DNA of 64,000 bases from the NCBI GenBank assembly GCA_964036045.1, contig OZ038378.1:60623408-60687407 (forward strand), given 5' to 3'. The notes below the pieces were generated by a model. The model was not told the origin of the DNA. It did not search any database and saw only the letters and a list, made by a program, of their open reading frames with translations. Positions 4,164 to 53,222 of this stretch are shown piece by piece; the stretch's first letter is position 1, and each line of letters opens with the position of its first letter. The position numbers and the translations under genes are program-made. The DNA is from Eutreptiella sp. 'Long Island Sound 2002' (taxonomy: Eukaryota > Euglenozoa > Euglenophyceae > Eutreptiales > Eutreptiaceae).

Positions 4164-4178
4164 TGGTAGCAGAGGCTT
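4164..4178 (+). promoter_or_regulatory. Primer-binding site, initiator tRNA-Met-like
   Basis: TGGTAGCAGAGGCTT lies at the LTR edge and is close to TGGTATCAGAGC, the common initiator-Met primer site of chromoviruses. The core GGTAGCAGAGGC recurs at 17965 before the gag of element 3. Confidence 0.75.
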
Positions 4179-30890: not shown

Positions 30891-31080
30891 TATGGGATGC
30901 AGCGTTCTAGGGCGTGGTGCGGAACCCCCCCAATTTTGGGTGTTGTTAATATGGTTGGAACCCGGAATTTCACATGTTACATGGGTGCACTATGATGCAA
31001 CAATGTGCCTTCCATGTATTGTTTGCTCGATATTGCCCGTTTTGCACTTTTTGCGATTTGATCTTTGTGTGCTCTAACTA

Positions 31081-31222
31081 GTTATCGCGGGGTTAGAACG
31101 GGGTTAGAGCACTAGTTATCGCGTGGGTTATCGCGCGATAACCTAGTTATCGCGGGGGTTATCGCGGGGGTTATCGCGCGATAACTAGTTATCGCGTGGG
31201 TTATCGCGTGGGTTATCGCGCT
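31081..31222. repeat. Element A palindrome array, left
   Basis: At least six units of GTTATCGCG with complements (GTTATCGCGCGATAAC, ACTAGTTATCGCG) occur, mixed with GGTTAGA.C half-sites. It ends about 30 bases before a TTTTCGCTTTAG acceptor-like site that precedes the transposase ATG, so it is probably intronic in the 5' leader. Confidence 0.85.
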
Positions 31223-31278
31223 TCATTTTATGTTTCCCCTTTTCGCTTTAGCTCTCAAAGCCTTCGTATTCTTTGATA

Positions 31279-33335
31279 ATGGCCCTTGCTGCTGCCCACG
31301 CTTGGTGCGAGCACCATCAAAAGCTCCTTGGGGTCCGTCGCCTTGGCGGTCCTGAGGGGTTTACGATGGGTGATGCCAATGTGAGGCGCCCTGTGGCGAC
31401 CCGCTTTGAACATGGTGTGGACTTTGGACTCCTTGTCCATAAGTCCCCCTTCATGGCGGACGACCGAGACCCCCTGGTTCTCAGCAACTACATCTTCGAG
31501 TTGCTAGAGGTAAATCCAGGGGTTGCTGGATTTTTGATCCAGCTTCATCCGGACGATGTGGACGCGGTGGTGGAGTCCGTCACCGCCCATGCCGAGAAGG
31601 GTGCGGGGACGAAGACGACCCTCTATGTGGGTCAGGAGGAGGAGGAAGTGGAGGAAGTGGAGGAGGAGGAGGAGGATGCGGGGGGGGTGGGGGCTGGGGG
31701 GAGGAAGGAGAAGCCCCACAACCCCCTCATGATTAGTGTCCAGAAGGTAAGGATCCGACAGGGTAAGGGGAAGGGGCAGTCGGATGGTTGGTTCCCCCAA
31801 CCCCTCACCCACAACACCCGCCGGGTCTGCACTGACGACCCCGAAAACAAGCTCCCCATGCACTCCCTTTGCCCCACAAGGGAGTGGGAGCGTGAGTGGT
31901 ATGGGGTCACCACTCCCAACATTGTTTCGGGGCAGGGGGTGATTCTTTTTCCATTTGGGGCAACACCCCCCCTTATTGGGGAGGCGGAGGAGGTGGTTGC
32001 CGCCGAGCCCTTGGGGGCCTTTAATAGGGACCCCAATGACCTTGTGCTCACGGTGGGGGGGAAGCTGGTGGTCAACCACCTCCTGGAGCACGATTTTTTG
32101 AGTGATGTGCAGCTCCAAAGTCTTTTGTGCAAAATGCAATATCTATGGCCCGAGTTATTGGGAAACCCCCCCCTAGTGGCGTTGCCATTATTGTTATTTC
32201 AGTTGATGCGACTTCCTTGTGGAAGGCATCCTCTACCCGTGCGGATGTATGGGTTAATGTATGGGGGGGGGCAAAATATGCTTCGAAGGTGAAGCTATGG
32301 GCCTCATGGTTTTGCATGGATGGCGGGGATGAACAGGCTTTTTTGAGAAGCCTGGACATCTCCGCCAACCTCAACCAAGAGGTGAGGGATGTGGAAGAGG
32401 ACGTTGTCCTCTTTCAAAACCAATTTTTGACTTGCACTGTCATTTTGACAGGGGATGGGAAGGGGATGCAAGCAATGGGGGGGGCTGGGTCTAAGTGTTG
32501 GTTGTGCAAAGACCCCAATGGGATTGTTGAGCAAATGGGGGTGGAGTCCACCTCAAGATGGGGGTCATTCTTGAGAAGTGTGACCCCTGATAGGCGGCCG
32601 GGGGACTACCAACATGCAGCATGCCGCATCCTAAACGGCATTGCAAAGCGCATTGAGACCACCCTCCAGGCCCTCCCCCCTAGTACCCCTGGTAAGGCCC
32701 AAGCTCTTGCAGCTTTGCAGGCTTTCAAACAAGCCCTCAAGGATGAGACCGCAGGCATCCCTCTTAGGGAACGCCTCCCTTCGGCCTCGAGGGCCACAGA
32801 AAAAGATTTCGATCTAACCAGCACCAAAGTTTTCCTAACCTCCCCCCCCTTCCAAAGGCAATTTGTGGAATGCCTCAAAGAGCATGTCCCCACAGTGAGG
32901 ACCCCTGGGGGACCTATGTTATGGGTTGTTGTGCATGTCATGGTGAAATGCATTGAGGGTTTGTATGAGCTTTGGAGGGTGAGGGAGTTGTACACTCTAA
33001 CCCAAGTGGAACGCCACCGTGCGTTGACCACAAAATTTTCAAAAGCGTGGGGAGACTCAGGTTGGTCCCCCACCAGGTGGATCCATTGGTGCTTGGCACA
33101 TTCCACCTTTTTTGCCGAGAAATGGAGGAACATTTTTCAGTTTTCCTCCATCCCAACGGAGTATCGGCATGGGCCTTACAAGAGGAGGCTCAAAAATTGT
33201 TTTAAGGGTTGGTCTTTGGTGAGGCCAAGTATGTCCCTCCGCCACATGCACCATTGCATGTCCATGAACGCCCTGGAGCAAGGGCTTTTGGGACTGGAGG
33301 CAGCCAAGGCCTCAGACATTGATGACTTTGTATGA
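31279..33335 (+). pseudogene. Element A transposase, RAG1/Transib/CMC-type DDE, one frameshift
   Basis: The first ATG is 31279, after AGCTCTCAAA...CTTTGATA, a leader shared with the element C dioxygenase. The N-terminal half includes an acidic tract. The frame shifts at C8 (about 32165-32173) and then reads VIISVDATSLW (first Asp about 32205) and ILTGDGKGMQ (second Asp about 32454). SKCWLC follows (CxxC), then WIHWCLAH (Hx4H near 33083-33098), and PTEYRHGPYKRRLKN (Glu about 33159). From the last His to Glu is 20 positions, as in RAG1. It is the smallest member of the family found here. Confidence 0.75.
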
Positions 33336-33397
33336 AAAACGACCACAGATGCTTTGTGCCAAGTGTTTTGTGTTGTTTGTCCCAGGGAGGGAGGGAG

Positions 33398-33480
33398 GAG
33401 GGGTGCGCGATAACTACCCGCGATAACTGCGCGATAACTGAGTTATCGCGCGATAACTAGCGCGATAACTAGTTAGAGCA
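33398..33480. repeat. Element A palindrome array, right
   Basis: GCGCGATAACTACC, CGCGATAACTGCGCGATAAC and TTATCGCGCGATAACTAGCG match the left array, followed by GTTCTAAC/GCTCTAAC units to about 33525. Confidence 0.85.
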
Positions 33481-33966
33481 AGGTGCTCTAACTGCGTTCT
33501 AACTCTGTTCTAACTGTGCTCTAACTCTTTGACCCCCCCCCCAAAAACCACCCCCATGATGCGGGTTATGTGGGGAAAGAAAGGGGATGGGGGGTTTTTG
33601 AGGGTGCTGAATCCATTTTTTTAGGTGGTTTGCCCCAAAATTGAGGGTAGGTGGGTGTTCCAGAAATTGCGTTCTAACTAGGGGTTCCGCACCACGCCCT
33701 AGAACGCTGCATCCCATAAGACGCATTGTAACTACGAAGCCAAGAGACATTCGCCAACTTGCTTCGGAATGCAGCCAAATCATGGCGGGTGTCTATTATG
33801 TTGTTACACTGGCTACCCAGGGATTTTTTCCTCCTTTTTGGTGTAAATGTAAACTTTTTACCCTAAAAACCCCCGGGTTTCATGCCCCTCTCGTGCTGAA
33901 AACACTCCTACACGGTACAAAAGTCCCAAAGTTGGCTTCCCGGGCCTGGGCTCGCGCAAATTCACA

Positions 33967-34005
33967 AGTTGGCGCGCCAACTTGCGACTTGGCGCGCGCC
34001 AAATG
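33967..34005. repeat. Element B palindrome array 1
   Basis: AAGTTGGCGCGCCAACTTG and CTTGGCGCGCGCCAA lie beyond the transposase 3' end. Confidence 0.85.
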
Positions 34006-34186
34006 TCCCCCCATTGATCAAACCATCGACTTGCATACCATTGTTGTCACTGGAAATTCCGTCCCTCACCTGCCCTTGCACACTTGGCACGAAGAAAGCA
34101 TTGTTCCATCTTTTTTTGATTAATGTGCAAAAGACTGCTAATGCGCAAGAAGCTGTCAAATCAATCATATAAATCATATATAGAGG

Positions 34187-36002
34187 TCACATGCCTTGTT
34201 CAGCCTGGACGAAGACCCCCTTATTCTCTATGTACCCCCTTTGCTTCGTCCACGACGACTCCCAAACCGAAAATTTTTTATTATATAACCCCCAGTCCAG
34301 ATTATCTGAGCGGATCACTTCCCCCCACCCCTTCCGCGTGCGATCCCCCTTGCCCCCCTTCACCCGCACTCTGGCCCCCCGCAGTCTGGACACCCGGCCG
34401 CCTTTACTTCCACCTCGAAAGCTGCGCTTTGAGATTTCACATTTCAGGGCTTTGTGCCGCCCCTCTCCTTTGAAGGCGGCAAAAATGGCAATGTGCCCCC
34501 ACCTGCGGGCCCATCCCAACAGGTGGTCAATCCACAGATGGGCCCACAGGGTGACGTTCATTTCACAGGCCTTATGGGCCTCCCCCATTTTTTTCAATTC
34601 TGTTCGCAGAATTTTCATGTCGGGCAACTGCAATGGTCCGGATTTCCAGACGACATCGCTTGTTGCCAACAGGGATTTTCCCCATTGCCGGAAGGCGTCC
34701 GTCCAGGACACCTGGACCCCCCCCATGTCAACGACATGCTGCAGGAGGCCCTCCCCCTCCAAATGGTCACACATGGTGTCCCATCCCTCACTCTTCACCC
34801 ACTCGGCAGCCGCCGTCTGCTCGATTTTCAGGGGCACCTTCTTCTTATCCTTCCTCTCCTCTTCCAACGCCACCCCGGTGGCGGTCCGTGCCTGGATCCG
34901 AATGGGATCCAGGAACCATTGCACCCACCTCACGGCCTTTCCCCTTTTCCACCGATGCACCGTGTGGAGGCTGTTCACAAGGGCTGAAAGCCCATTGTGC
35001 ACTTGCCGGTGCACACCATGCAGCCCATAGTCGGGGGGCCGCTGGGCGGGGCGCACGATCGGGCAGATCATCCCCGCCCACAGCCACTCCTCGACAATCA
35101 CCCCCATCCCGCAACCAAATTCGTGCAGAATGGTTGCCCGATTTTTCCCACACAGCCAACAAACGGTGGTTGCGGGGTTTTTGGCCGTGAAGGAGGAGCA
35201 ACCCCCCAAAATGACCTGCGCCTTGGTGTGTGCTATAAAAAAACAAATCACCTTACGCAGGTAACCCCCTTTATCGGGGATTTGCTGCTGCGCCACCTCG
35301 GTGAGGTCCGCGTTCAGGTCATAGACCTCGGCCAATTGGGAAATGATGGCCTTCTTCTCGGATCCGCGCAGCAAGATCCAAGAGCCCAAGGGCATATGAC
35401 TCCCCAGGTCTCCAACGGCAAAATGCACGAAGGAGGCCTGCGAGAGCTTTGTCCCGTCGAAGGAGATGCCCACCCACACGTTGTCCGTCAGGAACGTGGG
35501 GCCGTCACGGTGCCACATCACCTATGCCGGAAAACAGGCCGTGTGTAACGGGTCACCGTGAACGGTCGCCGGGAAACGCTTTGGTGCAGGGTGAATATAC
35601 CTGCAGTTTCTGCCACAGATTGCATGCGGCCCCAAAAATGTCATCGTCCTCGTCCGTCTGAAAATGGACCTCCGTGACACGGGGGGCGGACAATGCCTTT
35701 CGCACCTGCATCAGGGTTCCCCATGGGCACTTCCATTGGCTGTGTGCCCGGCTGTACTGCAGTTTGCGGAAGCTGTCGCCATTTTTGCGGCGCTCCCACA
35801 GAATGGCCGCGGCCAACAGCTCCAAATCGGGGGTGGGGGGTTTGCTCTCCCCGCAAACGAGGTGGATGCGGCGGCGGCCGGGTTTGACGTGTACTTCCTA
35901 ATGTGGCCCCAGAATCTCCCCCACGACTTCGCGAAGGCGTGCCAGCCGCGCGCGCCTGTCGCGGTAGTTTGAGGGCGCCAGCTGCTCAAAGGGCCGCTGC
36001 AT
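34187..36002 (-). pseudogene. Element B transposase, two exons, RAG1/Transib/CMC-type
   Basis: Exon 1 (36002-35601, 134 codons) starts MQRPFEQLAPSNYRDRRARL; a GT-AG intron of 79 bases follows; exon 2 runs 35521-34187. Exon 1 aligns well with the element C transposase N-terminus (RARLARLREVVGEIL versus RVQELQEVVSKEL) but has one in-frame TAG. First Asp: VGISFDGTKLSQASF. TTVCWLCGKN gives CxxC, PPDYGLHGVH is shared with C, LWAHLWIDH gives Hx4H, and FKGEGRHKALK holds the Glu, 20 positions after the last His. The second acidic site, DGKAQV in element C, is HTKAQV here. The transposase may be inactive. Confidence 0.75.
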
Positions 36003-36111
36003 GGTGCACAAACAAAGACCTGCGGCACGTGAGGACGTGGCAGGCGGGTTAGATCATGCAACGGAACGTTGTTGCACGTTCGCACACAGATGGCACACAG
36101 TTGGCAGGCAG

Positions 36112-36298
36112 TTGGCGCGCGCCAATTCAGGATTTGGCGCGCGCCAACTCGTCAGTTGGCGCGCGCCAAGTCCTGAGTTGGCGCGCGCCAAGTGGCAAGT
36201 TGGCGCGCCAACTTCCCATTTGGCGCGCGCCAACTCCCCTGTTGGCGCACGCCAAATCAGGATTTGGCGCCCCAACTTACCACTTGGCGCGCGCCAAA
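36112..36298. repeat. Element B palindrome array 2
   Basis: Seven or more TTGGCGCGCGCCAA units with short variable spacers sit between ORF2 and the transposase, upstream of a CCGCAG splice acceptor and the transposase ATG. Confidence 0.9.
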
Positions 36299-36344
36299 AC
36301 CATGCCCAGCCGGTGCCTGCTCATTTCTTCGACCGCTTGCTGCC

Positions 36345-37585
36345 CTAACTCTGACTCCCCTCGCTCTCTTCCGCCCGCCTGCGCTTGGGGTCAAGCAGGT
36401 GCGAAACCGGGTGCTTGTCCAGCAGGCCCTTCAGCTCCGTGAGGGTGGCCTCTTTAACCCCCATGTTGATGGCCACATGGCGTTGGGCGCTGAGTGCAGA
36501 GTGCAACTCCACCGCCGCCGCCTGCAGGTACAGCACATGCTGCCCTTGGTCGGGGTCTGCACTACCCTCTGCCCCCCCCCCAACTGCACGCACCTGCGCC
36601 GTGGCGGTCACCTGCTGCTGCAACTCCCCCCTCTGCTTTTCCCACCCCTTCTCCCGCCGCTCCCACAAGGCGCGCTCACCGGTGAGCGCGTCCTGTGCCG
36701 TCTTGCGGGCGGCCTCCGCCGCCTTCAGCTGCTCGCGCAGCAGCTTGTTCTCCGCCTCCAGGCGGAGAATCTCCGCCTTCTCCCGTGCCCCCTCCCCGTC
36801 TCCCGCTGCCTGCGCTGCCTGTGCTGCCTCCCGGGGGGTGGTCGTGGGGCGAGGGCGCCTGGAGCCCCTAGCTTGCTGCTCCGTGCGGCCCTTGCTCTGC
36901 AGGGAGGGGTCCCCAGACACGTCAGATGCGGCCCTGCCCCCCTTCTCCCGCTTCGGCCCTTTCCCCACGAGCTGCTTCTGGAAGCGGAGCACAAACGCCT
37001 GCGTTGCCTCCTTCAAGTGGGGGGCGGGGGCAATGGCCCGCACGTCGCTCCACTCACACTGCTTCCACCTCTGCAGCTGTCCCAGAGCGTCAATGCTGCA
37101 GAGGAGGAGCCGGTTGTGCGTGGAGGGGGGGCGCACCTGCACAAAGGGCACAACGGAGACAACCCATGGTTGCACCCCCCCTTCCCCTGCACCACTGCCC
37201 AGAACGGGCACTCCACCACCCGGTTCTGTCCCGAACCCCGCCGAATCACCTGCGCCTGGAACAGGCGGCTGATGATCGTCCCCCCCCCATCGACGACGTC
37301 CACCGCCGTCGCCTCGGCGGACGTCAGCTTCAGGAACTTGTCGGGGCTGTGCAGGGCGTCCCCGAAGTCCGCCGGTTCCGGGACCGCCGGAACGTCCCAA
37401 TCCACCACCACGTCCACATCCACCTCCAACCCCTCCTGCTGCTCCTGCCGCTGCTCCTGCCGCTGTTCCTGCCGCTGCTCCTGCCGCTGCTCCTGCGGCT
37501 GCCCCTCCACCTCCTCCGCCCCGGCCGGCACGGGCACCGGACGCGGGTCCACTTCCAATTGAAAATTGGCGTAGTGGATGGGGAC
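36345..37585 (-). pseudogene. Element B ORF2, globular domain plus coiled coil
   Basis: The exon begins after GCGCATTTGCAG at 37585 (VPIHYANFQLEVDPRPVP). A QEQR tandem tract follows, then an ordered domain ending in VVECPFWAV. The frame shifts at a C7 run near 37180 and continues VQPWVVSVVPFVQVRPPSTHNRLLL. A classical coiled coil follows (EKAEILRLEAENKLLREQLKAAEAARKTAQ, about 36820-36700). The C-terminus is LDPKRRRAEESEGSQS with a nuclear-localisation-like KRRR. It matches element C ORF2 in layout. No known family is recognised. It could be a DNA-binding or accessory subunit. Confidence 0.6.
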
Positions 37586-37707
37586 CTGCAAATGCGCAAC
37601 AACACAAGCATAAAACAATGCACACAACGACACCACTGCAACAGCGAAGACAACTCGAAAACCAGCCACAGCACAACGTTTCCGATAAAACCCAACGAAT
37701 TAAATTC

Positions 37708-37910
37708 AGGCGCCAAAACGGCACTTGGCGTGCGCCAACTAGCTATTTGGCGCGCCAAAACTTGACTTGGCGCGCGCCAAAACTGGACTTGGCGCACGCC
37801 AACCGAACACTTGGCGCGCCCACCGGTGACTTGGCGCGCGCCAAGATGGAAGTTGGCGCGCGCCAACTGCGAAGTTGGCGCGCCAATCTGCTATTTGGCG
37901 CGCGCCAAAT
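37708..37910. repeat. Element B palindrome array 3, inside an intron
   Basis: Eight or more CTTGGCGCGCGCCAA units sit between the dioxygenase splice donor (37963) and the ORF2 acceptor (37586). These sites would join the two ORFs in phase. Confidence 0.9.
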
Positions 37911-37962
37911 TCGTGTCACGTGTGACAACATCGCATGCATGCAAGGCACCGCGCGGGCACAC

Positions 37963-40219
37963 CTTCTCGCTGCAGGAGCAGATGGTGCGGCGGGCCTTGT
38001 CCACGCGGACGAGGTCCAACATCTCGGCGTCCTGGGAGCTCAGGGGCGGGGTGAAGTGGGCCATGGCCATCCAGGCCATGCGGCCGGCCCCTGGCTCCCG
38101 CACGAACGCAGCGCCCAGTGCGGCGAACGAGTACACCACCGTGCCTGCCGTGCTGCGCACGCGGCAGAAGTCGGTGGCCTCGAGGGGGGGAAGCCACCAC
38201 CTGTGGATGTGCGGAGTGAGGCAGGCATCCGCTCTGGCCGCCTCGGCGGTGGGCCCCACGTGCGCGTGGTCGGTGGGGGTCAGAAACAGACCCGCAGACA
38301 CCCCCTCTTGCAGGAGGAGGACGTCCCCCATGTAGGGCACCGGGGGGTCCAACGGCTGCTCAGCCTGCGACACGAAGCAAACTGGCTGGGGGATCGCGTC
38401 GGGAGTGAGGAAGTCCTCCTCTGCCGGGGGGGGGGCGGCCGGCCTCTCCTCCGCTTCCGCCGGCGCCTCCGCATCCGCCGGCGCCTCCGCATCCGCCGGC
38501 GCCTCCGCATCCGCCGGCGCCTCCGCATCCGCTGGCGCCGCCGGCATCTCCTCCTCCTCCTGTGCCGCACTCTGTGGGGGGGGGGGCGGCATCCGCGTCA
38601 GCCGGCGCGGCCGGCCTCTCCTCTGCATCCGCCGGCGCCTCCGGCATGTCCACCTCGTGGGGGGCAGGCACGGGATCCTGGGGCCGGTACCTGTCCGGGT
38701 CGGACCCATACGGGAGGCACAGAGGGGACCCGACTGCAGCCCCCTCGGCCAGAAGCTCGGAGGGCATCACCGGAACACTGTTCATCAGCTCCGTTACACT
38801 CTCCGGCTCTACGGTCAGCATGCGCGACCGGTAGCCGACGGGTGCAAACGGGATGAACAGTGCCCGGCCAGGCCCGCCCGCACCGCGGTGGATCACCGTC
38901 CCGCGGAGGAGCGTCACGCTGCGAAGCGGTTGGATAACAATATCCCACCGATGCGCAGCGTGATAGCCCCCCTGCGTGCCCGGGCACACCTGGAGGGACT
39001 TGGACGGGGGAGAGGTGGTGAGGGGGATGAACACGACCATGCACTGCACTGACTGTTTCACAGACAGTGCAAAATCGCGGTGGGGGATCTGGAAACCCTT
39101 CCAGGGTTCTTCCTCCCACCGCTCGATGATCTTGGGGCACAAGGCCTCAAGTCCCTGCAGCGGTGGGAGGGAGAACCCCAGCAGGGCCAGAACAGCCTGC
39201 CAGAGGTCGTCCGGGAGCCAGTGGGGGACGCTGGAGACCGTCGTCTGATAGCGCCCCCCACCTTCCCCGGGGGCCTGGAGGTCCACCTCCTCGAGCATCG
39301 ACGGGTTGAGTTCCACCGTGGCGAGCTCCGCCAGTCTGGCCCACAGATCCTCGGGGATGATGCGGTCATACTGGCGGTAGCCCGCCGCGGCAAAACCCTC
39401 CTCCGTGACGATGGGGGGGTTGGGGATGTCGTGGTTGGCGACGGGGTAGGAGTTGTGGAAGGAGGGGTGGGGGCAACCCATGCCAAGCATGGTGAGGGGG
39501 GCGTCGGTGCTGTAGAGGGTGGGGTGGGTGATGTTCGGGATGTGGGTGCGCAGGCGACGGTTGGTGGAGAACTCTGTGGGAGCTACTGCATCCCACGCCT
39601 GCACCTTCACCGACTGGTACCGCACGACGGCGTCAGTGGCCGTGCGGTGCGTCCAGCCACTTTTTTTGACTGGATCCACCCACAGCCACTGCTCCTCGGG
39701 GTGGAGACCCTGAGGCGGCATCTCCTGCAGGTCGAGAACGTTAACGAACTCTTTTGACGCTGCAGCAGTGCACAGCTTCAGGGTCTTGTTGAAGGCCTCA
39801 AGGGTGACTTGAGAAAGCTTCAACTCGACCGCGAGCGTCGTGGGGTACCGACCCATCACGGCACAGCAGAATCTGCTAAGAACCCCCCTGGTCAGGGCGA
39901 AGTTAACACGGGTGGCGTCAATTCGCCAGACCAAGTGGGGATTGCCCGGCTGGTCCCACTTGCCGAAGAGGGCGGCCTCCAGGGGTTCGCGGAGGGGGGG
40001 GGGCTCGGGGAAGGATTCGGCGTCCGGGGAGGTGAGGGTGTAGGGGATGGGAAAATAGCCCCCGGGGAAGTGCTCGGAGCCGACGTTGGCGATGTGGGCG
40101 TCGAGCACCGCCTGCACCTCGGGGTTAGGTGGTGCAGCGGGGGCTGGGGCTGGGGCAGACGTGGGGTCGGTGACTGTCACCTCCTTCCCCTTGCCCTTCT
40201 TGGGTTGCTTTGGAGGCAT
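37963..40219 (-). pseudogene. Element B 2-oxoglutarate/Fe(II) dioxygenase-like protein
   Basis: ATG at 40219 lies 15 bases after a CCCTTTCCCTTCTAG acceptor. The N-terminal region is about 330 residues. The catalytic fold is suggested by FQIPHRDFALSV (HxD), MVVFIPLTTSPPS, VCPGTQGGYH (phytanoyl-hydroxylase-like PGTxxG), and VTLLRGTVIHRGAGGPGRALF (distal His and Arg). Ala/Asp/Glu repeats (APADAE) follow. A G13 run near 38575-38587 shifts the frame, and the protein continues to a Cys-rich end (TICSCSEK) at a GT donor. Substrate is unknown. TET/JBP-like action on modified bases or a PhyH-like role are the main alternatives. Confidence 0.65.
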
Positions 40220-40289
40220 GATAACGTGAAATGCCTAGAAGGGAAAGGGAATGCATAAAGGGTGCAAGAGAAGAGGAAGAATGGGGCAC

Positions 40290-40432
40290 TTGGCGCGCGC
40301 CAAAACCGGAGTTGGCGCGCGCCAACTCAAGAGTTGGCGCGCCAACTTGGCGCGCCAACTTGGCAGTTGGCGCGCCAACTCTTGAGTTGGCGCGCGCCAA
40401 CTGCCAAGTTGGCGCGCCAACTTTGACTTGGC
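40290..40432. repeat. Element B palindrome array 4
   Basis: Six TTGGCGCGCGCCAA or TTGGCGCGCCAA units lie upstream (minus strand) of the dioxygenase gene, just before its leader acceptor site. Confidence 0.9.
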
Positions 40433-40648
40433 TTCCAAAAAGTTGGCTTCGACCCAAAAAACCCACATATTGCATCATAACAACAAAGCAACGCAACCAA
40501 AAGCTGTAAAATATCAATAGTTCCTCACGTTTCATGCACAAGGCGTAGCAACAACACAGTGCACAAGTACAAGCAAGTTGAATGCTCTCGACATGGAGTT
40601 GACTAGGAGTTGGCGAATGTACAGTATCTGGGGTTGGCTTCGTAGTTA

Positions 40649-40740
40649 CAATGATTGGAACAACTATGCAGGTCCGCAGCTTCACAGGTCAATGATTGGA
40701 ACAACTACGCATGTCCGCAGGTTCCGCAGGTCCGCAGGTC
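40649..40740. repeat. Short tandem repeat at the right edge of element B
   Basis: CAATGATTGGAACAACTA occurs twice (40649 and 40691), followed by several GGTCCGCAG units. Confidence 0.6.
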
Positions 40741-40783
40741 CCGCACCGAACCAAGATTGCTATTCTTTTGCCAATAGGAAAGT

Positions 40784-42115
40784 ATGCGATGGAAACGTGG
40801 CCCCCTCCGTGCAAGGAAGTGTGCTACCCAAATCGGTGTGGATGAAGCTAGGCGTGGCCAATGCGTCCTCGAAGGAGCGCGTAGCCCCCTAGAGGTCTGG
40901 GAATACATGATTGACCCCGTTCTCCACCTGATGGAAAAGGCAATCATCAAAAAGGGCAAACGGCACCTCACCGGGTACGTGCCCAACTACTTTTGCTTGC
41001 GGCTGGCTCTGGGGATCGTGAATCCCACCCGGATTGATGACATCCCGGACCCCGATGCCGCCGCCTACAACCCCCGTCTTAGTCGGCTGCTGTCGCGCCA
41101 CAAGTTCTGGGAACTACACCGCTACGCGCGACCCAATGTGGTCAAACTAGTGGCCAAATGCAGCAAACACTGGGCTGCAGCATGGATCATGGAGGCTTTT
41201 GTGGCCGGTGACGAGGGCATAGCCCCACACAAGGGGAAGGGGCCAATGCGGATGTACATCCCTTGCAAACTCCATGCGACGGGGGTAAAGCTATACGTCT
41301 TGGCCGACGCCACAACCCCCTCTGTACTAGATATGTACATCTACAAGGGCAAGTGCAGGCTGCGGGGTGCCCGCCGGTACAAGTGCATTGGTCGTTTCCC
41401 GGCCAGCGAAATTACAAATTGCTGGGCTGACCAGTTGCCACGGGACACAACACTAGTTTGCGATAGCCACAAAACGGCGGGTGGCCTAGCAAGCCGGCAG
41501 GTACCATTTCTCGTTTTGGTACCCAAAAATACCAAAGGCGTGCCGGCGGCGGCACAACGACTTAAGGAGGGAGCGTATCGTGTGGGCCACACGAAGGCTG
41601 GGTACTCCTTGTATGCATTCAAAAGCCCAAAGGTGGGTAGCAAGGCGGGCAAGGTGGTGCCAATGCTCACGAACTGCGAGGTGGTCGGAGAATACACCAC
41701 CCATAAGCGTGGTTATGAACTGCCAACGGTAGTGCAAGTGTACCGTCAGGCATCAAATGGTGTGGACGTTTGCAACCAGCTGGCACTACAGCTGCGCGAG
41801 ACCAATCGCATCGGAACATGGAGTGCTGCAGTGCGCGCCCTGGTCATGCGCTATGCTGCGGTGAACGCCTACACGGCTTCCAATGTGCTGGGTGTGCGCC
41901 AGCCCAGCCTGACACTTGGTGAGTTTCAATGGCTCACCATCAAGGCCGTGTTTCCGGACATTGAGCGGCCACTCGGAGGCGTGGTGCACGTGCCGGTGCA
42001 GTGCAACAAGGTGCGCATGCGGTGCAAACAGTGCGGCGGCGAGACAAACTGGATGTGCAGTGGGTGCGGCGACCCTCTCCACGTGAAATGCTTCGGCGTG
42101 TACCACAACGTGTAG
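40784..42115 (+). CDS. piggyBac-type transposase with C-terminal cysteine-rich domain
   Basis: The 443-codon frame reads as a DDE_Tnp_1_7 protein. NPRLSRLLSRHKFWELHRYARPN is the usual N-terminal core. The three acidic positions are in VAGDEGIAPHKGKG, TLVCDSHKTAGG and QASNGVDVCNQLAL. The C-terminus MRCKQCGGETNWMCSGC...HVKC is a piggyBac-style zinc-binding domain that helps bind the transposon ends. The catalytic domain looks complete. The exact start is uncertain because a neighbouring frame also runs across 40700-40890. Confidence 0.85.
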   Translation: MRWKRGPLRARKCATQIGVDEARRGQCVLEGARSPLEVWEYMIDPVLHLMEKAIIKKGKRHLTGYVPNYFCLRLALGIVNPTRIDDIPDPDAAAYNPRLSRLLSRHKFWELHRYARPNVVKLVAKCSKHWAAAWIMEAFVAGDEGIAPHKGKGPMRMYIPCKLHATGVKLYVLADATTPSVLDMYIYKGKCRLRGARRYKCIGRFPASEITNCWADQLPRDTTLVCDSHKTAGGLASRQVPFLVLVPKNTKGVPAAAQRLKEGAYRVGHTKAGYSLYAFKSPKVGSKAGKVVPMLTNCEVVGEYTTHKRGYELPTVVQVYRQASNGVDVCNQLALQLRETNRIGTWSAAVRALVMRYAAVNAYTASNVLGVRQPSLTLGEFQWLTIKAVFPDIERPLGGVVHVPVQCNKVRMRCKQCGGETNWMCSGCGDPLHVKCFGVYHNV

Positions 42116-42261
42116 CCGCGGACATGCAGGTTAGTGGTCATAGGCCGTCCGGGGAAGTACCCGGTCGGGAAGCTCCCACTGACGTTGGCCCCTGCAAGAG
42201 CTAACGACCGATGTTGCTGCCAGCCCTCGAAGGCTCTGGCTGGGGATGCAACCGCAACACC

Positions 42262-42610
42262 ATGGTATGTCGATAGCAAATGGGTACATGGGAACATGTG
42301 TTACCGCTTTTTGTACCCGGGTACACGGTGTTGTTCCCCACATGTTCTGACAATGTTCTAAACGTTCCGTTATGTTGTATTTTACCCGGTACAAATAGTG
42401 TTCCCACATATCTTTGTTTAGAACGTCCCAGACCTTGGGGACGTTCTAAACGTTCAGGTACACTATTTGTTACCGGGTACAATATGCGGGTACATACCGC
42501 AAATTTTTCCCGGACGTCCCCAACGTTTGACGCTCCCAACAAATCACAGCGTTTTTTTTTGTTCCCACGTGGGTATATGTGGGTACCGGTGTACCCTACG
42601 TACCCGGTAG
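42262..42610. repeat. GTACCCGGGTAC / GTTACCGGTAAC palindrome array (element E type)
   Basis: Many palindromes occur: TGTACCCGGGTACA, GTACCGGTGTACC, GTTCTAAACGTTC. An inverted pair (TTTACCCGGTACAAATAGTG and its near complement at 42450-42475) is also present. It lies between the piggyBac stop and the Ulp1 exon, whose acceptor TACCCGGTAG is the last array unit. Related units occur at 28300-28520, 28855-28900 and 30428-30480. Confidence 0.75.
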
Positions 42611-43010
42611 CCAAAGAGATATCAAGATCCTGTCCAAGTGCATGCAGAGAGTTGAATCCGGCGAAAGACTGGCCAACATGAGTTGGTGCCGCCGCCACAT
42701 TTTGGTGGTTACTTCCGCTGACAACGCAGGGTTGCATTGGTTTGTGTGTACCTTCGATTGTGGTGTCCAATTGGACCTTTTCACTATTCTGGTTGGGGAA
42801 CCCCTAAGCTCCACTCATTTGAACCGTCTTTTCTTGTTTGCCTTGGAGAAACTTTCGCTAACCACCAAGCACCACGCCTTGGAATTCCAAACGGACGGTT
42901 AGTCTTGTGGTTTTCAAAGGTTCAACATCGCTAAACTGGTGGTGGAGCACCGGGGTACTTTTTCCAGTTCGGCCCTCGTCCCAATAGGTGCCGGTTTTGT
43001 GGACTATGTG
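42611..43010 (+). pseudogene. Ulp1-like (C48) cysteine protease exon with one stop
   Basis: HILVVTSADNAGLHWFVCTF supplies the catalytic His region, and ALEFQTDG-stop-SCGFQRF supplies the Gln and Cys region (Ulp1 proteases read QxDGxxCG). The stop is TAG at 42900, where Trp or another residue is expected. The exon is bounded by CCGGTAG and a GTAAGC donor, with its phase-0 end at 43010. Ulp1-like proteases are frequent passengers of eukaryotic DNA transposons. The remaining exons were not found. Confidence 0.55.
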
Positions 43011-43025
43011 GTAAGCATTGTTTAT

Positions 43026-43130
43026 TATGAAAACGGTCTATTGACCCGTTTTCCTCAATGAAAACGGGCTGCAAAAGGTGCGTAAAAACGGGTTATTATA
43101 GCTCGTTTTATTTGGCTGAAACAGGTTAAC
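43026..43130. repeat. AACCCGTTTT inverted-repeat cluster, left copy (element F)
   Basis: ACCCGTTTTCCTCAATGAAAACGGGC, followed by AAAACGGGTTATTATAGC and TTTTATTTGGCTGAAACAGGTTAAC. The same blocks occur inverted at 51013-51150. It lies in the putative intron after the Ulp1 exon. Confidence 0.7.
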
Positions 43131-43747
43131 GAGACCGACGTTAGGTTCTTGGGACACTTGTGCGAACCTCCCGGCGACCTGTGCAGGTTCCAGTTCACAC
43201 ATGGAGGAGACGCAAGGCAAATAAACGTACCGCATGTGAAATGTTGGATGACATGATAAAAAACCCTACCACCGGCATGGGGAAAAACGCCTCCATTGTA
43301 CATACACTATACAGGATAGTTTCGAGTGATCACCTTTGATTAGTGTTTACAATCATATAGTATAATGATAGTTTGTTTTGATTTCTCCTTCGAATCCGAG
43401 TGTACATTATTAATAATAGTGTATAATAATTATGATCTACTCCTTGGGGCAACAAGGGCCACGCATGGAGCCATCTTTGGCACCCGCGCCCATGCAAGCT
43501 TCATGGTATGGAGCATTACGCCCAAAGGACGCCGCACATTGATCTCTCGGGAGCACTTATGACAAATGAACTCGGATGCCACTTGCCTAACCGCAGGCGG
43601 ACACTTTGGTCGCCGCATCTTTTGTAGGGCATCGGCATATCCGAGAGATCTTGGGAAATGGGAGCATTACCTGCGCTGGGAGGTGCAGCCCAAGCAACAT
43701 CCCCATACTCTTGGCGACTATCCTCCAAAGAGCGCTTCAGGGACACC
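43131..43747. other. Unassigned region left of element C
   Basis: No supported gene; ORFs are short. It may belong to the intron or element interrupted by element C. Confidence 0.35.
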
Positions 43748-44014
43748 TGTACCCTTCGTGAACCGGCCGTTTGAATCGGAGATTCACGGTACCGTGAATT
43801 TCCCCCAATTTTGCTGTGTTTTGCTCGTAACTTGGTGCTATCGTGTGCTTTTGTCGTGCTACCTTCGCCCAAAGTAAGATGCAACAAATAGGTGCAATTT
43901 AGAGGTTTAAAGTCCCCGCATGGTTTAACAGATTTTGTGAGATTCACGTGAATGTGAGATTCACGCACCTAAATTCACGCAAAAATTCACGCTAGATTCA
44001 CAGATTCACAGTAT

Positions 44015-44078
44015 GTGAAATTCGTACGAAATTCGTACGAAATTCGTACGAATTTCGTACGAATTTCGTACGAATTTA
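44015..44078. repeat. Element C palindrome array 1
   Basis: GAAATTCGTACGAA repeated three times, then TTCGTACGAATTTC repeated three times. The array is itself an inverted repeat. It lies upstream of a TTTCCCACAG acceptor and the dioxygenase ATG. Confidence 0.92.
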
Positions 44079-44127
44079 CCCTCATTTCCACTGTTTCGCT
44101 TTCCCACAGCTCTCAAACTCTTTGACA

Positions 44128-46047
44128 ATGTCGCAGCAGACTATGTCTCAGCTCGCCAGCCTGGCCTCGCGCCCCGACCCCGCAGCCGACACCCTCGCCC
44201 ACTACCAAGCCCTCCCCGTTGCCCACCATCAATTGGAGGAGGCAACGTACGAGTCGGAGGCACTGGGGGTGGATGCCATCGTGGGCTGGGCAGCCTCCCT
44301 CGACCCCTCCCCCGATGTCATCCACATCGACATGCGCAGCCCCACCCGCAACAGCTACCTCGGGGGGAGGGGATGGGCCACAACCCTGTGGAGGGAACTG
44401 CGCCACCAACTCCCCACCCTCAAATTTCTCCATCTGACCCCTCTCCCCTCTAGTGTTGACCAGCTCCTCAACTCGATGAGGAATAACCCTGTGGGGAAGC
44501 CTAAGGACGCCCACGTCCAGGTGTACCCCACCGCTAACCTCGTCCACCCCCCCCCCCACTGCGATATGGTGTGCCTGCAGGATCTTGCTGCAGGTGCACC
44601 AGCAGGCCACTCTTTTTTCCCCTTTTCTTGGCATCTCGCCAACCCCCGGTGGTGGGATGATTTGGGCATCGCCCCTTTCCATCCCACCATCCCCCCCCAG
44701 GTGCACGTCCCCGACGTCACCCACCCCACCTTCTACAGCACAACTTCTTTGCAATGGTACCGTGGTGCCTCATGCGCCCCCCCCTTCATTTCGAGTGAAC
44801 CCCCCCTCCGCACCGAACCCCTTCCCGACCCCCCTCATGGGGTGACGGGCAGCCCTGACCCCGCCCCCGACAGGGTTGGCCCCTCTCAGCCGCCCCTCAA
44901 CTTTGTTGATGGGAACGGCTACATTGTGCTTCGGGGGCTTGTGGAGGAACGGGATTGTGAGGTGGGGTGGAACAAGGTGATGAAGGCGTGGGGCAGCGGC
45001 GACGAAAAAGTCGTCGCAAAAAATTTTGAGCTCCTTTTCAACGCCGCGCGGAGTGAGGAGCAGGCCAAGGATCCCGAGCTCCCCCGCCGGTGGCAAAGCA
45101 AGAGCGCCTTGGGGTCGGGGGTGGGGGGGCCTCTCTTCAAGAAGTTCCACCCCCACCTCACCGAAAGTGTCCCTGGGGTTGAGGACCTCCACCCAATGAC
45201 GCCGGGCAGCGTCATTGTGGCCAGTGTGGGGAGTGGGCCGCAGCTCCCCCACACCGACGTGACCACCCACCCCGAAGTCCTCCCCCCCAGCGACAAGGCG
45301 GTGGGGGACTGCCACCTGAGTAGCTTCCTCTGCTTGTCAGAGGACTACCAGGTGGCGGTGCAGGCGGGGACGGCCCTGGGGGAGGCGGCGGAGGCGCGCT
45401 GGGACACCGTTCAGCTGCATCGGGGGGACATGCTGCTGATGGTGGCCACCAGCCGCCATCATGGATTGCCTGCCCACCCTGACTCCAAGGATGGGCTGCA
45501 GGGGGCTCTTTTTAACTTGTGGACCCCCGACCCCCGACACAAACACCACCAGGCCAACACCACACACTTGGACGCCATCCCCCCCAAGGAGGCCCTGGAC
45601 GTTGCTGGGGATTTGTCCAGCTGGGACCTCCCCAGCGTGGACCAGGTGTTGTGGGTGGGGAAGGGGGCGGTTGCGAGGGTGGGGTTGTGGGAGGGGGAGG
45701 CTGCCCAGGCCCTGTTCGCCGACCCCCCGCAGACGCTCCCGGCAGGCCCCCCCACCTCCCCCTTCCACCCCACCTTCATCTCCCGGTCGGCCCCGGCCGC
45801 CGACCTCGCCGTCATCGAGGTCGGCCCCCAGTGCATGCTGTTCTTCCTGGGCAGCGTGCACCAGCTGGAGGTCGTGAAGGGGGGCGATGTCGACGCGGAG
45901 TCGGAGATCCACTTCGCCTTGTCCGGCATTGCCCCCCCGGGTCGGCCGACCACGCTGTGGCACCTGGTGAACACGGTCCCAGCGTGGCGGTCGCCCAAGT
46001 GCGCGAGGACCGGGGCATGGAGCATCACCTGCCCATGCGACTGCAAG
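44128..46047 (+). CDS. Element C 2-oxoglutarate/Fe(II) dioxygenase-like protein
   Basis: ATG 44128 follows the leader AGCTCTCAAACTCTTTGACA. The open frame runs to a GT donor after GACTGCAAG (46047), 640 codons; read without splicing it would enter the array. VASVGSGPQLPHTDVTTHP gives HxD, and MLLMVATSRHHGLPAHPD gives the distal His. LFNLWTPD matches the strand after the His in element B, but the 2-oxoglutarate-binding Arg of B (GPGRALF) is not at the same place (GLQGALF). The C-terminus TCPCDCK resembles ICSCSEK of B. The N-terminal 250 residues have no known match. The frame is intact, unlike in B. Confidence 0.7.
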
Positions 46048-46093
46048 GTGTGCCTGCTTGTGTGTTTGCTTTGTGTATTTGCAACAATTGGAC

Positions 46094-46262
46094 GAAATTC
46101 ACGTGAAATTCGTACGAAATTCGTACGAATTTCGTACGAATTTCGTACGAATTTCACGTGAATAAATTTGTGTGAATTTTCTCGAGATGTGAAATTCGTA
46201 CGAAATTCGTACAAAATTCGTACGAATTTCGTACGAATTTCGTACGAATTTCTGTGAATTTC
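46094..46262. repeat. Element C palindrome array 2
   Basis: Two blocks of GAAATTCGTACGAA/TTCGTACGAATTTC (46104-46162 and 46192-46262), themselves inverted relative to each other, sit between the dioxygenase donor and ORF2. Confidence 0.92.
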
Positions 46263-46392
46263 GTCCAATTTGCTCCTTTTGCTCTTCCATTGCCCCGTGT
46301 CCACTCCCCCTTTCTCAATTTTTGCCTTGCACACCTCCCCACATCTGCATCCCGTTCACCGCTTGGTCGCCGGATATTCGGCACCACACCAG

Positions 46393-47912
46393 GCGCCAAT
46401 ACAAGCCCCGGCCCCGATTGCCTGAGGAGCACGCCGAGCCCGCCGAAGGCCCCGGTGGCGCCCAGCCTGCAGGCACCGGCGGTGGACGGGCACCAAGCGA
46501 GGCCGGCAGCGTGCGCAGTGTGGGGTCGCAGCGCTCTCGGCGTTCGGGAGGCAGCGAGGCCAGCACCGCCAGGGGGCATATGGCGCGCGAGGTGGTGGTG
46601 CCCCAGCCGTCCCGCGACGCGCTGGGCGAGGCCCACACCGACCCCCCCCTGGACCGGGTCACCTTGGCCGCCAGGCAGCCGGATCCGGCCTGGACCCAGC
46701 AGGTGCCGCCCGGGCCGGATGGGCGGCAGCGGCACCTCAGTGCCGTGTGGGACATGGAGTTGGAGTCGCGGGGGGTGCAGGGCACCCTCCGCATCTCCTT
46801 CCCCTGCCCCATTGTGCTCCGGGGGGGGTCCAACCTGCCTGAGGGGCAGGAGCTGGTGGGCATGTTTGCCTACCGGCTTGTGAGTGGGCACTGGCGGGTG
46901 CAGACGGGGGTGTCGGGGATCGGGGAGGGGGGGATGGTGACGACGGCAGGGATTTGTGGGCTGAATGTGCTCACGGGTTGGGAGCAGCGGAGGCCGGAGT
47001 GGGTGGACGTGGCATGGGTTGCCATGCGCGTCCATGTGGGGAGGCAGCGGAAGATGGGGGTGGTGGCTGACGTCATTGACGTCGAGGAGGACGAACCCCC
47101 CCCCACGCGCAAGCGGAAAGGGCGCCCCGAAGGGGACACGGGCTTCACCCCCCCCCCCCCCCAAAGCCCCGCGTACGGCCACCCCGGGGGAGCGGGCAGG
47201 GCGGGCGGAGCAGGCGGAGCCGTCGGGGGGGCCGGGGCAGAGGGGGGTGGTGCAGGAGTGGGTGGACCAGCGGCGGGCGGGGGCGTGGGAGGCACGCGCC
47301 ATCAGCGCGGAGGCCGCCAACCGCGACCTCGAGGCCCGTCTGTCCAGGGTCCACGAGGACAGGCGGGACTGCGAGTCGCGGTTGGCGGACGTCACCAGGG
47401 AGCGTGACCGGCTGGCCACCAAGGTGAAGACCGTGGAGCGTGACGTGGCGACGTTGCGCAAGGCAAAGCCAGCGGCACAGCCAGCAGAGGCAGTGGAGAG
47501 GGCTGAGGGTGCCGAGGCCCCCGCCCCCCCGGGTGACAGGGGGGGGGGCAGTGCTGCCGGTGTCCGGTACCTCCTGGCCGGCGCACAGGCCTGGCATGCC
47601 CAGGCCGAGGCATGCGCCGGCCAGGTGTCCGCAGTGTCCACCGGCCTGCGGATGGCCATCATGGCCAGTGGCCAGCAGGTCGATGTGGACAGCGTGGCCC
47701 CGGACGCCCCCAAGGTGACTGCCGCACTGGAGGAAGTGCGCCGGCAGTACCCCCCCCACCGCCTCACGTCGGCGGCCATGGACCCCTCCTTTGTGGAGGC
47801 GGTGGCGGAGCAGAGCTCCCAGGGCTCCGCTAGCAGGAGCTCTGCTCCCGGGGGGGGGGGGGTGCGTAGGTACCCTCCGGAGCACCTGTCCTTTCTAACC
47901 ACGACTTTCTAA
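46393..47912 (+). pseudogene. Element C ORF2, globular domain plus coiled coil
   Basis: A CACACCAG acceptor at 46392 precedes RQYKPRPRLPEEHAEP. Its phase does not match the dioxygenase donor, so the start is uncertain. A domain (HLSAVWDMELESRGVQGTLRI ... LVSGHWRVQTGVSGIGEGG, about 46730-47060) parallels the ordered domain of B ORF2. A basic RKRKGRP segment follows. The frame shifts at C15 (47148-47162). A coiled coil follows (NRDLEARLSRVHEDRRDCESRL...), then an Ala-rich C-terminal helical region. No family is recognised. Confidence 0.6.
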
Positions 47913-48250
47913 CCACGACGAATGTTATCCTGCCCCCCCCCCCCCAAGCATGGGCAGTTTGACCGATATGTGGGGTACTCCCCCCCCACTGTGCGAAATT
48001 TTCTGCAGCACTGTTTGTACATTACCCCCTGACCTGATGTGCCCCCTGACCTGTTAACCTGTTAACCTGTTAATTTGCGATTCCTTTCTGCGGAACTGTT
48101 TGTATATTACACTGCTGGCTGAGTGACAGCCGGAATGACAGCATGAGACAATGACAATGATAATGACAGCATGAGCACCATCCTGAGCTTGCTTTGTGAG
48201 GGTCAACGAGGGCACAAGGATGAGGCTTTGGCAGAAATTCTGTGACAGTC
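47913..48250. other. Spacer in element C
   Basis: C-rich runs, a short CTGTTAAC repeat (48051-48075) and GACA/ATGACAG repeats. No gene. Confidence 0.5.
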
Positions 48251-48251
48251 A

Positions 48252-48392
48252 TGTGAAATTCGCACGAAATTCGTACGAATTTCGTACGAATTTCGTACGA
48301 ATTTCACATTTTCAGAATATTCACACATTTCTATTCATGTGAAATTCGTACGAAATTCGTACGAATTTCGTACGAATTTCGTGCGAATCTAT
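48252..48392. repeat. Element C palindrome array 3
   Basis: Two blocks of GAAATTCGTACGAATTTC units, 48254-48306 and 48338-48390, upstream of a CATTCAACAG acceptor and the transposase ATG. Confidence 0.92.
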
Positions 48393-48507
48393 GTGATTTT
48401 CTTTTAATTGCATGCGAATCACAGTAGAGAGAGTGGTCTGCGGCAGGGGGATGGTAGAAACTTTGCGATGACTGCCTGCCCATTCAACAGGTCCTGTATC
48501 TCACATC

Positions 48508-50271
48508 ATGCCACGGCCCAAGGAGCCATTCCATCTGGTAGCGGATCGTACACGACGGCGGCGCGTACAAGAGCTCCAGGAGGTTGTTTCCAAGGAGCTT
48601 GCAGCACCCTACACCGTCAAGTACCTGCCCGACACGGGGCAAATAGTGCTTACCCCCGAAACAAGAATTGTAGCCACCGTCCAGCCCGAGCCCACCCAGC
48701 AGGAGAGGTTGATTATGGCCGTGTGGAGGATCCGGTCATTGCACCCCTCTAGGACAGAGTCCCGGTACCTGGTGGGGAGCATGACGTACGGTGTGGTATG
48801 GGACCAGGTGTACGGCATGCTCCGGCAGCTAGCGTTGCCGGAGTCCCGGGCGTTTACTGCCTATACGGGTGACGACACGGCCATCAATGGTGCGGCCTGC
48901 TACCTACCTGACCGCATCGCCCACCTATTCAAGTGTCGACCACCACCACCCTCGGCCATCATGCAGCCCGGGGACCGACGGCTGCATTGGTTGCCTATTG
49001 CGGTGGACGGTACATCGAGGCATGAGGCCTCGTACGTCCATTGCACGCTTGGTGGCACCGCCAGCCCCAACCAACTATCTAGTTGGTGGCTACTAGGGGG
49101 CAGTGAAAAGTGGGACACCCTCTACGCGGCCTCCGAGGAAATTGATTTTGATGATGAGTTGCGCAAGGCCGCAACCGTAAGTTTTAAGGATGCGGCAGGG
49201 AACGATAGGCAGTCCCTTTTTTTTCTGTGTGCAGATGGTAAGGCACAGGTGCTCATGGCGGGCTGCCAAAACTGGAAGGCAGAATCCCCTGGTGCCACTG
49301 TGTGTTGGGTCTGCATGCGTAACCGTGCTCTGTGCCTTGCTACCTTTGGCACAGCAAGTGCGATAGACGGCAACTGGGAACCAGCCGTTGCCATAAGTGC
49401 TATATATAGGACCATTATGAGTGATAGGCGAGTGCCTGATTATGGCCTCCATGGGGTCCTTCGTGTCCTGTTGTGTGCAGTCAACGGGACACGGGACCTA
49501 GTTGTACAATTGACAGGGAAGGCACCGGCCACTGTGGCACGCACCATGCTGCAACCGGTTTTAGATGAGGCACGGCTTGCTGCACGAACTTGCACCCGTG
49601 CCTCATGAAATAATGACAAGGCAAACAGCAAGGGGAAGGTGAGGATGGAGTGTGCTGCTGCCATCCATTTCATGCGCAATAAGGGTTGGGAGAAGATAAT
49701 AGATGCTTGCCTAGAGCAGCCTAGTGTCAGGCAGCATCAAGTAGGGGGAAAAAGTTGGGAGTCGGTGTGCAAAACGTGGTGGGAGAATTTTGCAAGCATG
49801 TGTGTATACGCGTGGCGTTCCGCATGGTTCTCCGGGGCCGACTTGGGGCGGCTCCGGAACCATAGCATAGCCATGGGCGCTGCCCACAATGAGCTCCAGT
49901 GGGGCAAACTTCTGTGGACGCATCTTTGGATCGACCACATGTATTATTTTGCAAAGAAGTGGAGAATCTTGTCAAAGTTCTCCTGCTTTGCCATGGAGGG
50001 AAGTCACCGGAGGCTGAAGCGCATGTTGCGCAACAGCGGGGGCCTAAGCCTCCTCCGGGGGAGACTAGGGGTGCAAGTGGTTGTGGACAACCACACCATT
50101 GACGATAGCCTTTGGTTGCATGGGTGGGATGCGACCAAAAGGGCTCAACATGGGCAAGGGCCCATAAGTGTACAAACGTATGCAAGCCGCACAAGAAGAC
50201 GGCTTCTAACCGACATGCAGCACCTTCAGACTCTACAGCGGCGGTTCCGGTGCCGCAAGAGACGGACATGA
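48508..50271 (+). pseudogene. Element C transposase, RAG1/Transib/CMC-type, one in-frame stop
   Basis: ATG 48508 starts MPRPKEPFHLVADRTRRRRV. Motifs in order are WLPIAVDGTSRHEASY (first Asp), FFLCADGKAQVLMAGC (second Asp), ATVCWVCMRN (CxxC), VPDYGLHGVLR, LLWTHLWIDHMYYF (Hx4H), and CFAMEGSHRRLKRMLRN (Glu, 20 positions after the second His). The only defect is TGA at 49606, in a variable linker that element B fills with a Lys/Glu-rich insert. B and C share this architecture throughout, which supports a single protein. Confidence 0.8.
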
Positions 50272-50381
50272 GATGACCTTACGAACCCAGACCATTGTTG
50301 CCTGTGACCGGGGTGCATGCTGGGGGGCTTACTAGGGGTGTGAGGACAAATCAGGGGGTGCACACGGGTAACATTTGTGTA

Positions 50382-50480
50382 AATTCACGTGAATTCACGC
50401 GAATTCACGTGAAATTCGTACGAAATTCGTACGAAATTCGTATGAATTTCACGTCAATTCACGTGAATTCACGGCTGTGA
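50382..50480. repeat. Element C palindrome array 4
   Basis: AATTCACGTGAATTCACG units frame GAAATTCGTACGAA repeats. A smaller AATTCACGTGAAATTCACG block lies at 50671-50689, close to the right end. Confidence 0.9.
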
Positions 50481-50850
50481 ATCGGCTACAGGCTTGCCGG
50501 GTTCCGGCACCTCTCGTTTTGGGCACGGTGCGGACATGATGCATGCTTTTGGGGCGGGACTTTCATTGGATGATGCGTAACAAAGCTAGGGGAGGAATTT
50601 TGGCCCCTCAAAGCCCTTGAAGCGAACCAAGAATATGGCATTTTCCCCCAAAAACCTCAAATTTTGGGTAAATTCACGTGAAATTCACGCAATTATTCAA
50701 ACGGCCACTTAACGGCCGTTCACGAAGGGTACACCTGTGTCAAGGGCCGCTCATCATAGTGCCACACCGACTCACTAGACTCACTTCTACCATCAGCGAG
50801 CAAGTCCACAGAGCCACCTGATTGGGAGGACGTCACACTAAGCTTTGCAG

Positions 50851-50998
50851 GGCTCGAATCGGCTACGGGAGCAGGGTGAGGAGGAGCCTCCACTGGTTCA
50901 CGGCTCGAATTGGCCACGGGAGTAGGGTGAGGAGGAGCCTCCACCGGTTCAGGGCTCGAATCGGCCACGGGAGCAGGTTGAGGAGGAGCCTCCACCCA
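50851..50998. repeat. 51-bp minisatellite, three copies
   Basis: GGCTCGAAT.GGC.ACGGGAG starts at 50851, 50902 and 50953. On the minus strand it stays open as a 17-residue repeat (PVADSSPEPVEAPPH), so it may be coding. Confidence 0.8.
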
Positions 50999-53092: not shown

Positions 53093-53222
53093 AAGGGATT
53101 TGCCTATAGGCGAATCACACGATTCACCCCATAATCCCACTCATATGCACTATCACTATAGAATCTTTTAAAGATTTTTGAGTTCTCAGGCCCGTCCGGC
53201 CAAGTAAGGAGATCCGTACCAA

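Follow-up and report, generated by a model that had tools for sequence, protein, structure and literature searches.

A 64,000-nucleotide stretch of contig OZ038378.1 from Eutreptiella sp. 'Long Island Sound 2002' (assembly GCA_964036045.1, positions 60,623,408 to 60,687,407, forward strand; hereafter the window) carries two DNA transposons, elements B and C, each of which combines a dioxygenase-like open reading frame (ORF1), a coiled-coil protein (ORF2) and a transposase with arrays of a short palindrome at the gene borders. A third relative, element A, lies beside B. We report the anatomy of these elements, the homology of the transposase and of part of ORF1, a predicted RAG1-type fold, the abundance of C-family homologues and a conserved HxD...H motif, and from these we infer a possible oxygenase activity, its substrate, binding of the arrays, recruitment by ORF2 and anti-silencing. 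On whether B and C represent two families within a single eukaryotic cut-and-paste lineage, with a transposase of RAG1/Transib fold, a three-gene module bounded by arrays and anti-silencing based on ORF1, we stand evenly divided.

The initial annotation had described B and C as two independent transposons of about equal size, opposite in orientation and differing in ends and array motifs. Sizes, coordinates and orientations hold good (Table 1), as do the differing terminal inverted repeats (TIR; CATTGTAACTACGAAGCCAA in B, TACCCTTCGTGAAC in C) and the common gene order, which in each element's own direction is ORF1, ORF2, transposase. Independence does not hold: the transposases of B and C share 34% identity over 352 amino acids (E 6e-50) and the ORF1 proteins 31% over 61 amino acids (E 8e-6), while the transposase of A is a weak match for each of the other two transposases (best E about 1e-6 and 4e-6). 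The shared order, gene orientation and array layout favour descent of B and C from a common three-gene ancestor, though transfer between families may have played a part. Each element is present here as one copy. The outermost ends of C are TACCC..GGGTA, flanked by a 6-bp direct repeat, CACCTG, which suits C better than a TA duplication; those of B are CATTG..CAATG with no clear duplication. No convincing direct repeat, of 6 bp or otherwise, flanks the single copies of A and B, the ends of A being compatible with TA. Members of the CACTA/EnSpm-Mirage-Chapaev-Transib (CMCT) clade, which includes RAG1, mostly have 5'-CA..TG-3' ends and target duplications of 2-5 bp (PMC12730594).

Structure comparison bears out the RAG-like transposase of the initial annotation: the predicted fold of the C-family protein matches Transib, ProtoRAG (BbRAGL) and RAG1 over residues 61-529, with 7-13% of residues identical in the superposed structures. 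Between the second catalytic D and the last E lie the CMCT-type motifs C(2)C and H(3-4)H, the latter spaced H-x4-H; in the transposase alignment (A6) they are kept as C266 in 12 of 14 rows, C269 in all 14, H472 in 11 and H477 in 12. The C-family transposase has both features of the clade, the paired motifs and, by prediction, the RAG1/Transib fold. Profile searches (Pfam, PHROGs, NCBIfam, PDB) recognised no transposase family, a KaiB match standing at E 0.11. Scans with the transposase yielded 6 and 54 pattern-matching stretches in IMG/VR and 52 in GTDB contigs, with no confirmed relative among them. This copy of the C transposase contains a single in-frame TGA (49606-49608). In B a histidine stands where the second catalytic D is expected, and this copy is therefore probably inactive.

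ORF1 is, judged from its sequence, probably dioxygenase-like. In an alignment (A1) of the window's C ORF1 with 14 of its 29 matches, the residues of the putative metal triad are retained almost throughout (H377 15/15, D379 14/15, H447 15/15), and relatives at 42-50% identity keep them. H377 and H447, those of HxD...H, are the only invariant histidines; R426 and D428 are likewise present in every row, and Q460 in 14 with one gap. In B, whose ORF1 has frame breaks in this copy, PHRD and HRGAGGPGR align with the triad sites of C, and an arginine stands eight residues past the distal histidine (+8), where the aligned column of C is G461. As the alignments have it, the arginine typical of 2-oxoglutarate (2OG) enzymes is kept by B and not by the C family. 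We retain the dioxygenase reading because the conserved residues are those of the metal triad.

Palindromic arrays, four in B and four in C, lie at the gene borders, whereas A has GTTATCGCG arrays near both ends only. As the initial annotation had indicated, the motifs differ between B and C, and nearly every match falls within its own element: raw counts over the window, for two C 11-mers and their complements, one B 9-mer and one A 9-mer, are 41 of 42 for C, 45 of 46 for B and 17 of 17 for A. The arrays are rich in CpG, in contrast to the coding sequences of the three elements, where observed/expected CpG is 0.42-0.79 with an excess of TpG/CpA; this depletion and excess would be consistent with host CpG methylation and deamination.

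Parts of the unit recur outside the window, in support of the conserved unit of the initial annotation. Homologues of the C proteins at E<=0.001 form at least 45 clusters for the transposase, at least 29 for ORF1 and at least 161 for ORF2 (120 of these listed), the searches having scored about 8000 candidates that shared most words, so that all three are lower bounds. The full-length forms head P0001 (transposase, 587 amino acids, 203 sequences), P0046 (ORF1, 677 amino acids, 193) and P0083 (ORF2, 505 amino acids, 66), and the transposase cluster with the most sequences, P0011 (248), is of a shorter form of 422 amino acids; these memberships do not translate into numbers of complete elements and possibly draw on more than one assembly. 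ORF2 may fall into more clusters because poly-C runs break its frame, as in the C copy of the window, where it is split over two frames. Two diverged translated copies, P0168 (49-54% identity) and P0062 (63%), run collinearly from ORF1 through an array into ORF2, and this order therefore exists elsewhere; among the fetched proteins flagged as spanning pieces, none holds an ORF2-transposase junction in the window's order. Contigs of equal size recur across the homologue lists (626,575 for P0009, P0070 and P0079; 2,003,987 for P0014, P0051 and P0145; 33,888 for P0061, an ORF1, and P0161, an ORF2), and contigs of equal size are presumably the same contig. Four of the 194 fetched proteins (P0022, P0075, P0127, P0135) combine rearranged pieces of two genes, which suggests rearranged C-family copies, perhaps produced by recombination at the palindromic arrays. 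Three of these four have one piece inverted.

In the mechanism that we propose, the arrays of a family-specific, CpG-containing palindrome that bound each module gene would overlap promoters and be binding sites of an element-encoded protein, either the transposase or ORF2. ORF1 would be an Fe(II)-dependent oxygenase, brought to the arrays by ORF2, with its coiled coil and its basic, nuclear-signal-like stretch, or by the transposase, and would there oxidise methylated bases and thereby keep the genes and ends of its own element open. With array motifs that diverge, each family would receive such help only from its own proteins, in the manner of the VANDAL/VANC anti-silencing of plants. Removal of a silencing mark by the dioxygenase, which the initial annotation had raised, is plausible by analogy. 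Put most specifically, the module might be a complete, self-addressed epigenetic eraser, with family-specific CpG palindromes as address, ORF2 or the transposase as reader and a divergent oxygenase, ORF1, as effector, the C branch having lost the usual 2OG-anchoring arginine and perhaps using a new co-substrate; we advance this version tentatively and regard it as doubtful.

Several observations weigh against ORF1-based anti-silencing by a conserved module. For ORF1, neither Pfam nor PHROGs gave an oxygenase family at E<=10, and NCBIfam gave none. Of the two ORF1 proteins only that of B had any matches there, all in low-complexity parts: two PHROGs, at E 0.49 and at E 1.8, and DUF3306, at E 3.5. 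PDB searches returned six and three chance-level matches with no oxygenase among them, and the AlphaFold model of C ORF1 from the 15 rows has a predicted local distance difference test score (pLDDT) of 31, with no reliable fold. The dioxygenase call of the initial annotation accordingly keeps its motif and loses its TET/JBP or PhyH assignment, and on the test set for it beforehand, the sequence-profile score is no better than chance; for lack of profile recognition and of a reliable model we write 'dioxygenase-like'. The protein may be hard to recognise in the same way as PE-type TET proteins, for which HHpred against CMD1 gives E 1.4 (PMC12730594). The G461 column of the C family reads G in 11 rows, A in two, R in one and a gap in one of 15, with no conserved Arg or Lys, and the canonical co-substrate pocket may therefore be absent. 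In shuffle tests on ORF1 segments picked after the motifs had been seen, the global B/C alignment scored above most shuffles (5 of 300 reached its score in the oxygenase-like region and 7 of 300 in the C-terminal part), and local scores were at chance (oxygenase-like 39/300, C-terminal 156/300, N-terminal 191/300). In IMG/VR, C ORF1 gave 101 and B ORF1 three pattern-matching stretches, with no confirmed relative.

The 'matching protein layouts' of the initial annotation fail likewise for ORF2. Its best profile matches are weak coiled-coil or SMC-like ones (E 0.011-0.044), and a profile built from 21 of the 161 C-family matches (alignment A5) scored B ORF2 at the level of shuffled sequences (57 of 60 and 48 of 60 scored as high); homology at the level of sequence is therefore rejected, and the two ORF2 proteins correspond by position and coiled coil only. 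Comparison with the B and C proteins detected neither ORF1 nor ORF2 in A, whose upstream reading frame (31252-32292) matches none of them; the wider group can therefore do without the module. As for methylation, CpG ratios elsewhere in the window are 0.54-0.89, similar to those of the elements, and the TpG/CpA excess is shared; since the motif itself produces the CpG enrichment of the arrays, and GpC is enriched still more in those of B (1.7-2.0), array CpG richness is suggestive only.

ORF1 might instead act in the manner of JBP or CMD1, adding or building a modified base that marks or shields the element's DNA, and not clear methylation. The missing basic residue of the C family would suit this, since CMD1, a vitamin C-using enzyme whose product is 5-glyceryl-methylcytosine (5gmC), likewise lacks a basic residue holding the far 2OG carboxylate (PMC7854593); B, however, retains its arginine past the distal histidine, and we judge the alternative unlikely. 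It is improbable, too, that the triad reflects chance or descent in a protein that is no oxygenase, the element being simply a RAG1-like transposon of the ordinary kind with several genes, two of them for accessory proteins: the failed profile and PDB searches and the low pLDDT speak for this, but the only two invariant histidines of the family are precisely those of HxD...H, and B aligns with the same pattern.

Two further alternatives concern the arrays and the history of the module. Subterminal repeats are common in CACTA-type elements, and A has end arrays with no detected ORF1 or ORF2; the arrays could then be subterminal repeats bound by the transposase for synapsis only, with ORF1 and ORF2 as passengers or in an unrelated role (on histones or RNA, for example). 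Arrays also occupy the two gaps between the genes of each of B and C, however, where synapsis has no need of them, and the ORF1 triad is kept in relatives at 42-50% identity; we consider this alternative rather unlikely. B and C may also have acquired their dioxygenase genes separately, whether by independent capture or by passage from one transposon to another, of which the TET genes of Puccinia transposons are a reported case. ORF1 similarity is weak outside the 61 amino acids and ORF2 similarity undetectable; against this stand the same gene order, orientation and array layout and the homologous transposases, which make independent capture less likely than common ancestry and separate acquisition as a whole distinctly improbable.

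Among known systems, the closest to the proposed anti-silencing module are TET-bearing transposons, including the RAG1-like ESTA and EnSpm of rust fungi, for which anti-silencing has been suggested (PMC12730594). ESTA (TET-bearing and EnSpm-like, from Pucciniales; Kojima 2025, PMC12730594) also unites a RAG1-like transposase and a dioxygenase gene in one DNA transposon, and both it and the present elements have the C(2)C and H(3-4)H motifs. It differs in its TA target duplication, as against the candidate 6 bp of C, and in its TET, the present ORF1 having no TET/JBP profile match; the available part of its description mentions neither arrays at gene borders nor a coiled-coil partner, and the word 'subterminal' occurs 0 times in the paper's text (PMC12730594). 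An oxygenase gene also adjoins the transposase in fungal TET-bearing Plavaka, EnSpm, Kyakuja, Zisupton, Dileera, IS3EU and other elements, some families adding a third protein, although several have transposases of other groups (PMC12730594). IS3EU has TA..TA ends and 6-bp duplications, with which the single copy of C and its candidate duplication would agree, and is placed near integrases (PMC10045372). Transib, ProtoRAG (BbRAGL) and RAG1 are alike in predicted transposase fold and differ in accessory genes and ends. VANC is not known as an oxygenase and falls in a different superfamily; the comparison is one of function only. In Arabidopsis, VANC anti-silencing proteins of VANDAL elements address family-specific short tandem motifs in noncoding parts of the transposon, and their motif binding has been demonstrated (PMC10398659); for the present arrays such binding is proposed. 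CMD1, a TET homologue of Chlamydomonas, is an HxD...H oxygenase with an unusual co-substrate pocket, comparable in this to the putative oxygenase ORF1 (PMC7854593), but PDB searches give no sequence match between them. In the open-licence literature, judged mainly from titles and listings, we found no description of the three-gene, array-bounded layout. Were ORF1 an oxygenase aimed at its own arrays, the TET-bearing and the VANC-type, motif-addressing routes to anti-silencing would be joined in one element, in a system whose enzyme, address and reader could be tested separately; a transposase of RAG1 fold would bring in, close to the line from which V(D)J recombination arose, a further branch that has different partner genes.

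Table 1. Features of elements A, B and C in the window (TIR, terminal inverted repeat).
Feature	Position	Strand	Remarks
Element A, third RAG1-like relative	30891..33718	+	2828 bp, perfect 38-bp TIR
A transposase	32106-33335		within element A
Element B, whole transposon	33724..40653	-	6930 bp, perfect 20-bp TIR
B TIR	33724-33743 / 40634-40653		CATTGTAACTACGAAGCCAA
B array 1	about 33960..34005		TTGGCGCGC palindromes, 2 units
B transposase	34187..35521	-	N-terminal part excluded
B array 2	about 36109..36298		transposase/ORF2 gap
B ORF2, coiled-coil protein	36345..37699	-	in two frames; weak coiled-coil Pfam matches only
B array 3	about 37710..37909		ORF2/ORF1 gap
B ORF1, dioxygenase-like	37891..40219	-	frame 38360-40219; probable continuation in frame 37891-38766
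B array 4	about 40290..40432		upstream of ORF1
Candidate 6-bp target duplication of C	43744-43749 and 50732-50737		CACCTG
Element C, whole transposon	43750..50731	+	6982 bp
C TIR	43750-43763 / 50718-50731		TACCCTTCGTGAAC...GTTCACGAAGGGTA
C array 1	44017..44074		GAAATTCGTACGAATTTC palindromes, 11-bp step, upstream of ORF1
C ORF1, dioxygenase-like	44122..46161	+	H377, D379, H447; Q460-G461 at the place of B's 2OG-type Arg
C array 2	46105..46264		ORF1/ORF2 gap
C ORF2, coiled-coil protein	46330..47912	+	coiled coil with a conserved domain and a basic stretch; frame broken near the poly-C run at 47153
C array 3	48255..48388		ORF2/transposase gap
C transposase, RAG1/Transib fold	48508..50271	+	structure comparison
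C array 4	50382..50473		downstream of transposase

The right end of A and the left end of B are separated by 5 bases, and tandem repeats lie past the right ends of B (40649-40732, 41-bp units) and C (50851-50996, 51-bp units). Between B and C, a piggyBac-like transposase reading frame occupies 40778-42115 (+; Pfam DDE_Tnp_1_7, E 1.2e-13). Elsewhere in the window are a Gypsy-like retrotransposon (4075-12229, +) with matches to reverse transcriptase, RNase H, integrase and chromodomain, and a retroelement with reverse transcriptase (RVT_1; 53208-57503, +), in which the reading frame upstream of RVT_1 appears by eye to be tyrosine recombinase-like and has no Pfam match. The chromodomain-bearing Gypsy-like element and the piggyBac-like transposase are signs of a eukaryotic host. 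A satellite-like tandem repeat with a 197-bp unit in about 8.7 copies spans 61725-63434.

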